The translations under genes and the position numbers were made by a program. Below, one piece after another: positions 32,378-52,741 of a stretch of DNA of 64,000 bases (position 1 is the first letter of the stretch; the number at the start of each line of letters is the position of its first letter). Origin of the DNA: Protonemura montana (lineage: Eukaryota > Arthropoda > Insecta > Plecoptera > Nemouridae); NCBI GenBank assembly GCA_947568835.1, contig OX387611.1:12562350-12626349 (forward strand). Direction: 5' to 3'. The notes below the pieces were generated by a model. It had not been told where the DNA came from and made no database searches. It saw only the letters and a list, made by a program, of their open reading frames with translations.

Positions 32378-33957
32378 TTCTAGAAAGTCAAGGGTGGCTG
32401 TTGACCGTGGTGATTTATATGCTATTGCAGTTAAGACAAGAGATCTCATGTTGCATTCTGGTCTTCATGATAAAGGTGGTGTTCTAGAAAGTCAAGGGTG
32501 GCTGTTGACCGTGGTGATTTATATGCTATTGCAGTTAAGACAAGAGATCTCATGTTGCACTCTGGTCTTCATGATAAAGGTGGTGTTCTAGAAAGTCAAG
32601 GGTGGCTGTTGACCGTGGTGATTTATATGCTATTGCAGCTAAGACAAGAGATCTCATGTTGCACTCTGGTCTTCATGATAAAGGTGGTGTTCTAGAAAGT
32701 CAAGGGTGGCTGTTGACCGTGGTGATTTATATGCTATTGCAGTTAAGACAAGAGATCTCATGTTGCACTCTGGTCTTCATGATAAAGGTGGTGTTCTAGA
32801 AAGTCAAGGGTGGCTGTTGACCGTGGTGATTTATATGCTATTGCAGTTAAGACAAGAGATCTCATGTTGCATTCTGGTCTTCATGATAAAGGTGGTGTTC
32901 TAGAAAGTCAAGGGTGGCTGTTGACCGTGGTGATTTATATGCTATTGCAGTTAAGACAAGAGATCTCATGTTGCATTCTGGTCTTCATGATAAAGGTGGT
33001 GTTCTAGAAAGTCAAGGGTGGCTGTTGACCGTGGTGATTTATATGCTATTGCAGTTAAGACAAGAGATCTCATGTTGCACTCTGGTCTTCATGATAAAGG
33101 TGGTGTTCTAGAAAGTCAAGGGTGGCTGTTGACCGTGGTGATTTATATGCTATTGCAGTTAAGACAAGAGATCTCATGTTGCACTCTGGTCTTCATGATA
33201 AAGGTGGTGTTCTAGAAAGTCAAGGGTGGCTGTTGACCGTGGTGATTTATATGCTATTGCAGTTAAGACAAGAGATCTCATGTTGCACTCTGGTCTTCAT
33301 GATAAAGGTGGTGTTCTAGAAAGTCAAGGGTGGCTGTTGACCGTGGTGATTTATATGCTATTGCAGTTAAGACAAGAGATCTCATGATGCACTCTGGTCT
33401 TCATGATAAAGGTGGTGTTCTAGAAAGTCAAGGGTGGCTGTTGACCGTGGTGATTTATATGCTATTGCAGTTAAGACAAGAGATCTCATGTTGCACTCTG
33501 GTCTTCATGATAAAGGTGGTGTTCTAGAAAGGCAAGGGTGGCTGTTGACCGTGGTGATTTATATGCTATTGCAGTTAAGACAAGAGATCTCATGTTGCAC
33601 TCTGGTCTTCATGATAATGGTGGTGTTCTAGAAAGTCAAGGGTGGCTGTTGACCGTGGTGATTTATATGCTATTGCAGTTAAGACAAGAGATCTCATGTT
33701 GCACTCTGGTCTTCATGATAAAGGTGGTGTTCTAGAAAGTCAAGGGTGGCTGTTGACCGTGGTGATTTATATGCTATTGCAGTTAAGACAAGAGATCTCA
33801 TGTTGCATTCTGGTCTTCATGATAAAGGTGGTGTTCTAGAAAGTCAAGGGTGGCTGTTGACCGTGGTGATTTATATGCTATTGCAGTTAAGACAAGAGAT
33901 CACATGTTGCACTCTGGTCTTCATGATAAAGGTGGTGTTCTAGAAGGGCAAGGGTGG
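32378..33957 (+). repeat. 104-bp tandem repeat, 15 copies plus a partial copy
   Basis: Copies begin with TTCTAGAAAGTCAAGGG at 32378, 32482, 32586 and every 104 bp to 33834. A last copy at 33938 runs only about 20 bp before unrelated sequence. Copies are nearly identical, differing by single bases such as GCACTC or GCATTC, and AAAGGT or AATGGT. The first copy starts directly against the last hexamer of the satellite, with no spacer. Because 104 is not a multiple of three, each pair of neighbouring copies produces the same 65-codon ORF starting ATGGCTGTTGACC-like; I see no reason to call these genes. I do not recognise the monomer. Confidence 0.97.
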
Positions 33958-35455: not shown

Positions 35456-35845
35456 TTTAATTTATTGTTACAGGTGGTACAATTTAGTAATTTAGTGGAA
35501 TTTATTGGTCAGCGAAACGCGTCAAACATGAAAATACTATGCAAGATCCAAGAAAACTATTGTATTACTTATAATTAGAAGTATGTCTGCTCAAATAAAA
35601 TAACTTTTTGGTTCTAATACTTTCAGAACATTGCGCTTTTATGGAAAAATAGCAAAAATAGCGTGCTAAAAATAACCACTGCGATTATCTCGGCTCCCAG
35701 TTTTGTTGTATTCATTGTACTTTTACTCAGAGTCTGAAAAGCAGCCTCATCATCCCCTCATTCACAGACCTCAATAGACCAGTGCCACATGGCCAATGCA
35801 ACCATCTTCTGACTTTGTGTTTGTTTGATTCTAGCTTGCAGTGAA

Positions 35846-36439: not shown

Positions 36440-37078
36440 ATACAAATAAGCACAACCACAAGCATCTTAAAACTTGGTTATCATATGGGACTGCACACAA
36501 TTGACATAGCAATAAGCACAAGCATAGCACACAAGGATCTTAAAACTTGGTTATCATATGGGACTGCACACAATTGACATAGCAATAAGCACAAGCATAG
36601 CACACACAGATCTTAAAACTTGGTTATCATATGGGACTGCACACAATTGACATAACAATAAGCACAAGCATAGCACACAAGGATCTTAAAACTTGGTTAT
36701 CATTTGGGACTGCACACAATTGACATAGCAATAAGCACAAGCATAGCACACAAGGATCTTAAAACTTGGTTATCATATGGGACTGCACACAATTGACATA
36801 GCAATAAGCACAAGCATAGCACACAAGGATCTTAAAACTTGGTTATCATATGGGACTGCACACAATTGACATAGCAATAAGCACAAGCATAGCATACAAG
36901 GATTTTAAAATTTGGTTATCATATGGGACTGCACACAATTGACATAGCAATAAGCACAAGCATAGCACACAAGGATCTTAAAACTTGGTTATCATATGGG
37001 ACTGCACACAATTGACATAGCAATAAGCACAAGCATAGCATACAAGGATTTTAAAACTTGGTTATCATATGGGACTGC
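36440..37078 (+). repeat. 73-bp tandem repeat, about 8.5 copies
   Basis: The landmark AACTTGGTTATCAT starts at 36471, 36544, 36617, 36690, 36763, 36836, 36909, 36982 and 37055, exactly 73 bp apart. The first monomer is diverged at its left edge. The last is cut at about 37078, where the sequence passes straight into the upstream flank of the acidic exon. Copies differ by single bases. The monomer is AT-rich, has no coding frame, and carries AAAACTTGGTT, the inverse of the nearby 11-bp unit. Confidence 0.96.
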
Positions 37079-48030: not shown

Positions 48031-48480
48031 AGTGTATTCTGCGGCCGACCTTGGGCAGTCACGGGGTGCTAACCCTTAGCCATAGACAACCCAACCAACA
48101 TCAACGGCTCACTGGGAAGTGAAAACCAAGGCGTTTGAAATCAAAGCTATGCAGCCACGACAGGTGACAAAGTGACTGGTAGGTAAATTCGTTGAATTAT
48201 TGCGACCCAATTTGTGGAGTTTAACAACGCTCTGATCTAACAACGGGGCCCGATGCACTTGCTAAAATCTTTGGTGAATAAGTGGATGATAATTAGGATA
48301 ATGATTAGCCTAACCTAGCCTACAACTGAAAAGTGGAGATCCGGAGACTGCCCTTTGCCTACTTCTGTCGTAGAGCATTAAGAAACCAACGGCTTTAAGT
48401 CACAAGTACTGGTAGAACTCGAGCAACTCCACTAATCTGACAAGGGGTTGAAAAATAAGTTGAACAAAGTTGTTAATACG
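48031..48480. other. No gene recognised
   Basis: Mixed-composition sequence with no repeat, RNA gene or long frame that I can assign. Confidence 0.45.
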
Positions 48481-48483
48481 TAA

Positions 48484-48562
48484 CGTCTCTCCAACCTCGC
48501 TCCCGCACTTACATGTGTATGATGGAAACCCATCCAATACCTCAGTGATGTATTGGTCAATG
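48484..48562 (-). repeat. Isolated, diverged monomer of the 91-bp satellite
   Basis: Carries CTCTCCAACCTCGCTCCCG, ATGTGTATGATGG and ACCCATCCAATACCT in the order found in the 91-bp array 0.8 kb to the right. The following CGTACCCCCACT string recurs just left of the array at about 49308, so flank and monomer were probably copied together. Confidence 0.7.
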
Positions 48563-49329
48563 CACGCGGGTGTACCCAGTCCACCCACTATTAATTTTAT
48601 TTTTGGCCGTACCCCCACTTTGAATTTTTGAGGGAACGCAGGTGAACGCACGGGAAAGCAGTATTAAATTATGATTATTCGAAATATCCTGCACTTCTTT
48701 ATTTTCAAGGCGAAAATATCCCAGTTACGGGTTTCATTCCTAATAATCCACTTACTTAAAAATAGACCTAGCAAGAATGGCACTGTATGCGAACGTACTA
48801 AGAGTAGGTAGGCTGGAATTATGTCGGCGTCGCGACTTGCAACAAAGGGGTTAGTTAGAACCATATTACTGTTATCACTTAGGGAAGTCGGTAGCCGCTT
48901 TCGCGGCGTCGCACGGCGGTGCAAGCTCTCAGAAGCAAGCCCGCTTCAAAAAATAAGAATTCGCAGGAAAGATAAAAAAACAAAGAATAACCAAAATGCC
49001 ACATACGAGCCACACTGGACGAGTTAGTTCTATTCAAGATACAGAAGAGGAAGCAAGTGGATTTGCATTCCCTATCGGGTAATTAAAAATGCAGTTCTGA
49101 CCATGTCATTCCAAGCCCAATTTCATCGTAAACTCGTAGATTGACTCCAAAAGAAACCTTAGAATAAAAATTCACTTGGAGCTGCGCCCGAAGCCCCCTA
49201 TTTCCCACTCTTTCGGTGCATTCGCCTTGGGTCTCCTCATCCCCCCCCCCCCCCCCCCGCGCGGCCCGCCGACACAAAAAAATTATAAAATATGTCATTT
49301 TTGCGTACCCCCACTAAAAATTTACGAAT
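48563..49329. other. Left flank of the 91-bp array, with an 18-C run
   Basis: No gene recognised. A homopolymer of 18 C lies at 49241-49258, followed by GCGCGGCCCGCCG. Confidence 0.6.
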
Positions 49330-51373
49330 ACATCACTGCAATACCTGGCCCAGAGCAGTGTTGCTTAACTTTCATCCCTCCAACCTCTCTCCCGAACAGA
49401 ACTGGTCATGTGTATGGTAACCCATCCAATACCTGACCCAGAGCAGTGTTGCTTAACTTTCATACCTCCAATCTCTCTCCCGAACAGAACTGGTCATGTG
49501 TATGATGGTAACCCATCCAATACCTGGCCCAGAGCAGTGTTGCTTAACTTTTATCCCTCCAACCTCTCTCCCGAACAGAACTGGTCATGTGTATGATGGT
49601 CACCCTTCCAATACCTGACCCAGCGCAGTGTTGCTTAACTTCCATCCCTCCAACCTCTCTCCCGAACAGAACTGGTCACGTGTATGATGGTCACCCATCC
49701 AATAACTGACTCAGCGCAGTGTTGCTTAACTTCCATCCCTCCAACCTCTCTCCCGAACAGACCTGGTCATGTGTATGATGGACACCCATCCAATACCTGA
49801 CTCAGCGCAGTGTTGCTTAACTTTCATCCCTCCAACCTCTCTCCCGATCAGAACTGGTCATGTGTATGATGGTAACCCATCCAATACCTGGCCCAGAGCA
49901 GTGTTGCTTAACTTTCATCCCTCCAACCTCTCTCCCGAACAGAACTGGTCATGTGTATGGTAACCCATCCAATACCTGACCCAGAGCAGTGTTGCTTAAC
50001 TTTCATACCTCCAATCTCTCTCCCGAACAGAACTGGTCATGTGTATGATGGTAACCCATCCAATACCTGGCCCAGAGCAGTGTTGCTTAACTTTCATCCC
50101 TCCAACCTCTCTCCCGAACAGAACTGGTCATGTGTATGATGGTCACCCTTCCAATACCTGACCCAGCGCAGTGTTGCTTAACTTCCATCCCTCCAACCTC
50201 TCTCCCGAACAGAACTGGTCACGTGTATGATGGTCACCCATCCAATAACTGACTCAGCGCAGTGTTGCTTTACTTCCATCCCTCCAACCTCTCTCCCGAA
50301 CAGACCTGGTCATGTGTATGATGGACACCCATCCAATACCTGACTCAGCGCAGTGTTGCTTAACTTTCATCCCTCCAACCTCTCTCCCGAACAGAACTGG
50401 TCATGTGTATGATGGTCACCCTTCCAATACCTGACCCAGTGCAGTGTTGCTTAACTTTCATCCCTCCAACCTCTCTCCCAACATAACTGGTCATGTGTAT
50501 GATGGTCACCCATCCAATACCTGACCCAGCGCAGTGCTGCTTAACTTTCATCCCTTCAATCCCTCTCCCGAACAGAACTGGTCATGTGTATGATGGTAAC
50601 CCATCCAATACCTGGCCCAGAGCAGTGTTGCTTAACTTTCATCCCTCCAACCTCTCTCCCAACAGAACTGGTCATGTGTATGATTGTAACCCATCCAATA
50701 CCTGACCCAGCCCAGTGTTGGTTCACTTTCATCCCTCCAACCTCTCTCCCAAACAGAACTGGTCATGTGTATGATGGTAACCCATCCAATACCTGGCCCA
50801 GAGCAGTGTTGCTTAACTTTCATCCCTCCAACCTTTCTTCCGAACAGAACTGGTCATGTGTATGATGGTCACCCTTCCAATACCTGACCCAGCGCAGTGT
50901 TGCTTAACTTTCATCCCTCCAACCTCTCTCCCAACATAACTGGTCATGTGTATGATGGTCACCCATCCAATACCTGACCCAGCGCAGTGCTGCTTAACTT
51001 TCATCCCTCCAACCTCTCTCCCGAACAGAACTGGTCTTGTGTATGATAGTCACCCATTCAATACCTGACCCAGCGCAGTGTTGCTTAACTTTCATCCCTC
51101 CAACCTCTCTCCCGAACAGAACTGGTCTTGTGTATGATGGTCACCCATTCAATACCTGACCCAGCGCAGTGTAGTTTAACTTTCATCCCTCCAACCTCTC
51201 TCCCGAACAGAACTGGTCATGTGTATGATGGTCACCCTTCCAATACCTGACCCAGCGCAGTGTTGCTTAACTTTCATCCCTCCAACCTCTCTCCCGAACA
51301 GAACTGGTCATGTGTATGATGGTCACCCTTCCAATACCTGACCCAGCGCAGTGTTGCTTAACTTTCATCCCAC
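49330..51373 (-). repeat. 91-bp tandem satellite derived from 5S rRNA sequence, about 23 copies
   Basis: CAGTGTTGCTTAACT (plus strand) occurs at 49356, 49444, 49535, 49626, 49717 and onward to 51349, at 91-bp steps with one 88-bp step that recurs. Read on the minus strand, each monomer contains TTAAGCA, then 20 bases, then TTGGATGGGTGACC (or GTTACC). Animal 5S rRNA has CTAAGCA, 20 bases, then TTGGATGGGAGACC, the region spanning box A to box C of its internal promoter. The same two blocks at the identical spacing point to descent from 5S rRNA or a 5S-headed SINE. The rest of each monomer (GTTCGGGAGAGAGGTTGG) is not 5S-like. Whether it is transcribed cannot be told. ORFs of about 63 codons on either strand are by-products of the repeat. 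Confidence 0.85.
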
Positions 51374-52741
51374 AAGGACCAGTATTTCCAACCCTTCGGT
51401 TTGTATATAGAGTACCCAATATAATCTTTATATCGTAATGACAGCAGGCAAAAGATAACATTTTTTATGTCAAATTTGCTAAACCTTTTTAAATCAGAGT
51501 TCTATATGATTTTATTTGTTTATGATACATATTTCCGTGGCACTTTAAAAAACTGTCACATCGGTTCTTTGTGGCTGTTTCCATGGTGAGATTTGAAAAA
51601 GTAAAGAAGCAGATAGATATTTCATAGATACCGTTATGAATCAACGGCGACACGGAGTAACATCTGCAAAAGATTAACAGGCTTCGAGGCTTGGGATCGA
51701 CCAAAGATTGTTTGACCAATCGGCCAGATGATGCTGCCAAACGATATTAGGGAGCAGGTATTTTAGGTAGGGCCTTCCGACCTGCAGTGCGCTCTTTAAA
51801 GATTCAATGACAATGACAGTACCTTCCCCTAAAGAGCGCACTTTGTTCACCGCAGTGGATAGATAACAATCTCAAAAATATTCACTCAAACACGACTGTG
51901 AGGAAAATTAACTACCATAAATTTATAATTGTATATCAATGTACCGTTTAATACGTTCTAAAATCAATGAATTATATATAGCAAAAAAAACTTAAACTTG
52001 GATCAATCTGTGCTTGGATGTAAATATAATTACTTTCTCAGAACATTGGCTAAAAACGAACAAAGCACTTATTTAGTTGCAGCATTACATTGGCATTTGC
52101 GTTGTGAAGGTTGCTTTGTGACATGTTACAGACAGAAATTATGCAATTGTTTTGTTGTAAGAAAAAGGGTACCCCGTTCTGGCAACATTGTCACAGTATC
52201 TACACCAACCAATAAACGCTTCGATCACCTTTTCGCGTACTAAGGATGAGCGATTTAAGATGAGTTTTTGATTTGAGTTGTTACCAATCAACAATAGATG
52301 CGTTTTTTTGACGCAATTTTGGGGCCGCAAATGTATATTCCTTGTGTTGAAATTATTCTTTGCTCTAAACAGTCACACACACACACACAGGACAAGTGAT
52401 TTTTGGAGCAGTGTAATTGAGAGGATTTTGCTCGCTTCCCTCGCTCATTCAATTAGAAATATATTTAGCATTATCTTAGTGTTTGCTACCAGAGGGCGCT
52501 CCAATATGGGAATGAAGTCTTATATATCACATTATAGGCTCAATATCATCCATTCATTCACCGACACCATGAGCCCAGTGCAACAATCCCAGTTATTAAA
52601 ACAGTGCGTTCGTTAAACATCACAATTCGGATCACAATTAGACAACGAGTGTAAATTTACTTTTCGAAGCTTTTCTTTCCTTAGCGGTTACTACATTGAT
52701 GACTTGCAAAGCGCTTTAATCCCACGCGCAGCCAACCCTTA
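51374..52741. other. No gene recognised; small inverted repeat and CA run
   Basis: AGTGCGCTCTTTA at 51786-51798 is mirrored by TAAAGAGCGCACT at 51830-51842. A CA microsatellite lies at 52374-52389. Otherwise AT-rich with short frames only. Confidence 0.55.

Follow-up and report, generated by a model that had tools for sequence, protein, structure and literature searches.

SINE-derived satellites (sSats) have been described in squamate reptiles by Vassetzky et al. 2023 (PMC10702118) and, in the portion of that account consulted, are said to prefer chromosome ends. SINEs whose head derives from 5S rRNA (SINE3) form a separate group, for which the consulted part of PMC7245038 names various vertebrates and some insects as hosts, and a fungal case of a 5S-derived SINE is treated in PMC5063351. 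Satellites with a 5S-like part are also known, for example 5SHindIII of the fish Hoplias malabaricus (PMC2713275). In the titles and abstract openings of the top-ranked literature, where subscription journals are thinly covered, no satellite derived from a 5S SINE is named. The array considered here lies in a 64,000-nucleotide stretch of the genome of Protonemura montana (the window), and is very probably the internal tandem expansion of one copy of an abundant 5S rRNA-derived SINE of the SINE3 type.

A preliminary description, made from the sequence alone, had reported a tandem array of about 23 copies of a 91-bp monomer, and the array is real. TRF on the window gave a period of 91 with 22.4 copies at 49339-51371 on the minus strand, and a minus-strand scan for the unit start found 23 starts, the last unit being truncated, with spacings of 91 (17 times), 90 (three times) and 88 (twice). 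One 91-bp unit is made up of a 44-nt segment of the 5S internal control region and 47 nt of SINE body. The two sequence blocks attributed to each monomer are widespread in the array, but "each" was too strong: TTAAGCA-N20-TTGGATGGG occurs exactly in 12 of the 23 units, and TTGGAAGGG replaces the second block, at unchanged spacing, in six further units. The array and its surroundings contain the following features.

48210-48542, minus strand: what remains of the last unit, followed by the body and the 3' end of the interrupted SINE (SINE 74-433, 70% over 361 columns)
48535-48542, no strand: left copy of the 8-bp target duplication (CAATACCT)
48543-49338, no strand: 796-bp hAT-like non-autonomous insertion with inverted ends CAGTGATGTATT...AATACATCACTG and the 8-bp duplication CAATACCT on both sides
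49339-49346, no strand: right copy of the 8-bp target duplication (CAATACCT)
49339-49371, minus strand: last unit, cut at SINE position 81 (SINE 49-81 = 49371-49339)
49339-51364, minus strand: array of 91-bp units, 22 whole units and one truncated
51365-51400, minus strand: degraded head of the SINE (5S-like leader, shorter by about 9 nt than in the family; SINE 18-145 = 51392-51268, 91%)

Other tandem repeats of the window are an (ACGAAG)n array at 1-32377 (about 5,445 copies, 85% matches by TRF), in which open frames of up to 6,724 codons are to be expected of a hexamer without stops, a regular 104-bp array at 32378-33957 (15.2 copies) and a regular 73-bp array at 36457-37078 (8.5 copies).

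The proposed 5S internal-promoter fragment is borne out by comparison with the genome's own 5S gene (locus L004), to which the consensus unit aligns without gaps over 44 nt with 36 of 44 positions identical. AAGTTAAGCAACA and TTGGATGGGTGACC are the same in both sequences, all eight differences lie between those blocks, and the 20-base spacing that had been equated with that of 5S holds in this alignment. Its score of 28 compares with a maximum of 18.5 among 5,000 dinucleotide shuffles of the monomer, a comparison that the preliminary description had itself put forward, and with a best score of 15 for sliding pieces of window 32378-64000 outside the array. The matched stretch, 5S 49-92, is the internal control region, and each unit runs from the A box through the C box. 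The remaining half of the unit had been called unrelated, which is correct with respect to 5S, but it is the body of a SINE. It shows no significant likeness to the own 5S (shuffle p 0.28 and 0.14), leaving a 5S origin for this half unsupported, and has no blastn match at E up to 1 in eight 5S loci and their flanks, a comparison in which the promoter half did find matches. From the first unit of the window the 5S likeness extends upstream, with gaps, to 5S position 17.

The covariance check suggested earlier gave a divided outcome. A cmscan (Rfam) search of window 49200-51500 at E up to 10 yielded 0 matches and no 5S, probably because the unit amounts to about one third of the 5S molecule and the head is degraded, whereas the heads of sister copies did match. 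Twelve such copies were sampled by their tails, chosen by hand, each on contig C1, from 100 listed exact matches out of 7,952; five of them exceed the Rfam 5S cut-off of 38 (53-60.9 bits, E 6e-9 to 5e-11), L064 (35 bits) and L067 (23.6) fall under it, and five that are truncated or rearranged have no Rfam 5S match. A true 5S gene reached 117.5 bits in the same run. Separately, a histone 3' stem-loop is found at a distance of about 185 bp from the 5S genes at L005:1501-1850 and L008:1501-1850, a 5S-histone linkage within a repeat of roughly 9.5 kb on contig C11, whose three 5S genes are of mixed orientation.

The parent family was recovered by a genome-wide pattern search, which returned 17,649 forward and 17,528 reverse matches and none for the reversed-pattern control. 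Twenty isolated-looking places were hand-picked among the 100 listed exact matches of these 35,177, all on C1, and 15 of them hold a 5S-like head, one unit and a common body. The others contain two units (L043, L057), five units (L042, L052) or a nested minisatellite (L039), and the tails at L054, L055 and L057 are broken. Thirteen single-unit copies from the 20 places yielded a consensus of about 433 nt, in which the tandem unit corresponds to positions 49-139. The SINE begins with a 5S-like head of 48 nt, followed by a variable number (n) of units and then by about 290 nt of body and tail. Against positions 17-92 of the own 5S the consensus scores 52 (maximum 18.5 in 2,000 mononucleotide shuffles), and in gapless alignment with 5S 1-92 it agrees at 69 positions, most of the first 16 being different; at family level, the head is thus homologous to 5S rRNA, as in SINE3. 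The body may resemble the central Meta domain of MetaSINEs.

The elements are short, dispersed on both strands and present in roughly 10,000 copies by junction counts. Their flanks share at least 8 nt in eight of 24 copies, one of the eight shared flanks being the low-complexity AAATAAAT, as against nine of 552 mismatched pairs; 31 loci were tried in this test for target-site duplications, and copies without recognisable head and tail were dropped. Many tails end in short AAT/AATC-like repeats. The genome counts are 7,952 for the SINE body core and 5,259 for the last 35 nt, so that the tail gives no sign of a more abundant sharer such as a partner LINE. Two places in the window, 35747-35795 and 52539-52625, are like the SINE 3' end and have neither head nor core, perhaps representing another SINE family or the end of a partner LINE. 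In L039, another copy of the 5S-derived SINE, a 15-bp minisatellite (ATACACATGACCATC) extends over 1592-2969 with 91.9 copies; it perhaps grew between GTGACC and ATGACC, which are 15 bp apart, and would be a second satellite from this SINE.

The window array is bounded by the degraded SINE head on one side and, past the transposon, by the SINE tail on the other. The tandem unit is a segment of the SINE and the rest of the SINE flanks the array, which is what defines a SINE-derived satellite. SINE 74-81 is present on both sides of the insertion and constitutes its 8-bp duplication; the hAT-like element probably inserted later, into the last unit of this SINE copy. An 8-bp target duplication and CAG-type inverted ends, both hallmarks of hAT, are found at 48543-49338; the 796 bp contain no transposase-sized frame (longest stop-to-stop stretch, 93 codons), and the element is at most a non-autonomous hAT relative. 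No target duplication of the SINE copy itself was clear by eye.

The same flanks bear on a true satellite formed from duplicated 5S rDNA (gene part and spacer) with no mobile element involved. The 44-nt match to 5S is real and a satellite of this kind exists in the fish Hoplias, but such an origin is very improbable for the window array, since the observed flanks contradict it: a SINE-head remnant stands at the start of the array, neither the non-5S half of the unit nor the SINE body matches the eight 5S loci and their flanks, and dispersed single-unit copies with head and tail are common. The window array is the expanded interior of a dispersed SINE, not a free-standing 5S satellite. Of the earlier reading as a 5S satellite, the internal-promoter fragment in the unit stands, but the unit comes from a SINE of about 433 nt with a 5S-derived head, and not straight from 5S rDNA.

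The boundaries of the unit coincide with a short direct repeat. AAGTTA occurs exactly twice in the single-unit consensus, at 49 and 140, 91 bp apart, and the tandem unit spans the first AAGTTA to the next. The head-unit junction reads CACCG-AAGTTA-AGCAAC and the unit-tail junction GATGA-AAGTTA-GTACAGCAAC, while the unit-unit junction, GATGA-AAGTTA-AGCAAC, has on its left what precedes the second AAGTTA and on its right what follows the first. Judged by their sequence, these are the junction forms that recombination or slippage at AAGTTA would be expected to leave, suggesting that the two AAGTTA copies gave rise to the second unit, through unequal exchange or through slippage in replication. 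The promoter segment would then be repeated because it is situated between them.

In ten multi-unit arrays, the bases before the first unit are TCACCG in five, GGATGA in two (including the window array, whose head remnant ends in this later-unit junction type) and truncated or otherwise different in three. By contrast, TCACCG precedes none of 80 later units, 64 of which are preceded by GGATGA and the others by variants. Genome-wide there are 11,110 head-unit, 26,970 unit-unit and 9,998 unit-tail junctions, and none for the reversed-pattern controls; the pattern counts allow up to three mismatches, so that more diverged copies are missed, which may bias the ratios. With 26,970 of 38,080 counted units (about 71%) at unit-unit junctions, most units are tandem extras, and the counts correspond to about 3.4 units per head. 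At C1:1225130-1225615, head-type junctions recur at multiples of 92 bp. The junction rule is therefore not universal, head counts slightly overstate copies, and some arrays are built of a variant unit with the head-side junction in it.

Copies with 1, 2, 5, 6, 7, 9 and more than 20 units coexist in this one genome. Among 111 units, the nearest unit comes from the same array in a fraction of 0.655 (permuted mean 0.138, maximum 0.287 of 500), suggesting that arrays grow in place by further unequal exchange; the other arrays compared (A62k, A130k, A267k and A490k) are the first places among the matches listed. Few-unit copies may spread by retrotransposition as well. A stronger form of the latter, in which multi-unit elements are the mobile masters and retrotransposition spreads a unit number already fixed in the source genes, is unlikely. 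Flanks share at least 8 nt in three of seven multi-unit copies, L061 (two units), L042 (five) and L063 (six), as such masters would lead one to expect, but the other four share less than 8 nt, units tend to cluster by array, and unit number differs widely between loci. Moreover, a duplication proves insertion at that place, not that the array was already on board.

Growth in place does not account for everything in the window copy. Its mean unit distance within the array, 0.108, is hardly below the 0.114 to units elsewhere, and at aligned positions its tail is 78% and its units are 96% like the family. Five other arrays (5-9 units) have units 96-98% and tails 94-97% like the consensus, in a comparison that left out arrays whose fetched flank was too short for the tail (A62k and A267k among them). 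The age mismatch between tail and units in the window is not predicted by simple in-place growth of an old copy, and this one case of an old tail with young-looking units points to exchange between loci or to later seeding by young units.

The arrays are also unevenly placed along C1. Among the 100 listed exact unit-unit junctions, counted by hand in a set of matches that ends at 29.5 Mb, 45 lie in the first 2.3 Mb, two at 2.3-19.0 Mb and 53 at 19.0-29.5 Mb, while the exact head junctions listed on C1 number 24 (19 loci) in the first 2.3 Mb and 19 at 2.3-19.0 Mb. By loci, arrays number 16 in the first stretch against two in the middle, and heads 19 against 19 (p 0.007, for one contig and exact matches only, with bounds chosen after viewing the list). 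This distribution resembles the chromosome-end preference given for squamate SINE satellites in the consulted part of PMC10702118.

Whether the repeated promoter matters to the arrays is a separate question. The clustered potential Pol III or TFIIIA sites proposed earlier are present as far as sequence alone can tell. Four consecutive T occur neither on the sense strand of the array nor in the SINE consensus, and in 19 of the 23 window units neither box has more than one mismatch. Such features, together with units that reach from the A box to the C box, would suit arrays kept or amplified since every unit is a working Pol III type-1 promoter, offering many starts or a TFIIIA sink. This is nevertheless quite unlikely: both boxes are exact in only one of the 23 window units, and within five arrays (7-21 units of 91 nt) conservation of the promoter half does not significantly exceed that of the body (p 0.056-0.83), the promoter half being the more variable one in two of the five. 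Nothing inside the arrays thus shows selection on the promoter. Over 99 units of 91 nt the promoter half had seemed the less variable (p 0.0006), but this failed within arrays and was rejected, being probably due to indel-shifted single units.

A related reading, also unlikely, is that the SINE multiplies its own complete 5S-type promoter, in which case the arrays would act as Pol III loci with several starts, and exchange of units between loci would keep the units young in old copies. The body between control regions (47 nt) and the 5S leader before the control region (48 nt) are almost equal in length, and transcription from each unit would accordingly begin where the previous control region ends. 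Two of the 12 tail-sampled copies, L066 and L069, start at CATACACATG, near such a would-be internal start; the control region behind the start is absent from them, and they do not count as evidence.

With the interior expansion of this SINE, the origin of a satellite from a SINE can be followed by counting, and the six-base direct repeat that would set the unit can still be seen. A satellite resembling 5S rDNA can mislead annotation, and if the promoters work, unit number would provide a natural dosage series for Pol III recruitment.

The closest parallels, as far as the consulted portions of the cited papers go, are the squamate sSats (PMC10702118), which likewise consist of tandem pieces of a SINE, in which the end unit runs on to the SINE terminus, and whose units, as in the window copy, are more alike than the SINEs (in cobra, 89% against 64%). 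The 67-nt unit of the snake sSat combines part of the promoter (box B) with body, as promoter and body are combined here, but squamate sSat promoters are represented by box B and a tRNA portion (Squam3), whereas in Protonemura the head comes from 5S and the complete 5S-type control region lies within the unit. The window copy keeps both SINE ends, a minor variant among squamate sSats. SINE3 elements share the 5S-derived head and dispersed copies, but the consulted part of PMC7245038 makes no mention of internal tandem expansion. Hoplias 5SHindIII (PMC2713275) has a 5S-like part and agrees with the earlier remark that 5S-derived satellites occur in some fish, but its construction differs: the 360-bp unit has a 5S portion of 95 bp and a 265-bp portion similar to the 5S spacer, and the satellite is centromeric and is traced to duplicated 5S rDNA rather than to a SINE. 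In the limpet Patella caerulea, PcH-Sat (PMC11121367) is, like the Protonemura array, an invertebrate satellite with a SINE-derived segment, but its SINE piece is without Pol III boxes A and B, whereas the Protonemura unit contains the promoter segment. Cassandra elements (PMC7215508, PMC10853983) also bring a 5S promoter on mobile elements into long tandem arrays, but are plant elements with long terminal repeats, not SINEs. SINE-derived satellites are already known, and the Protonemura array adds to them a member with the whole 5S-type promoter segment in its unit.
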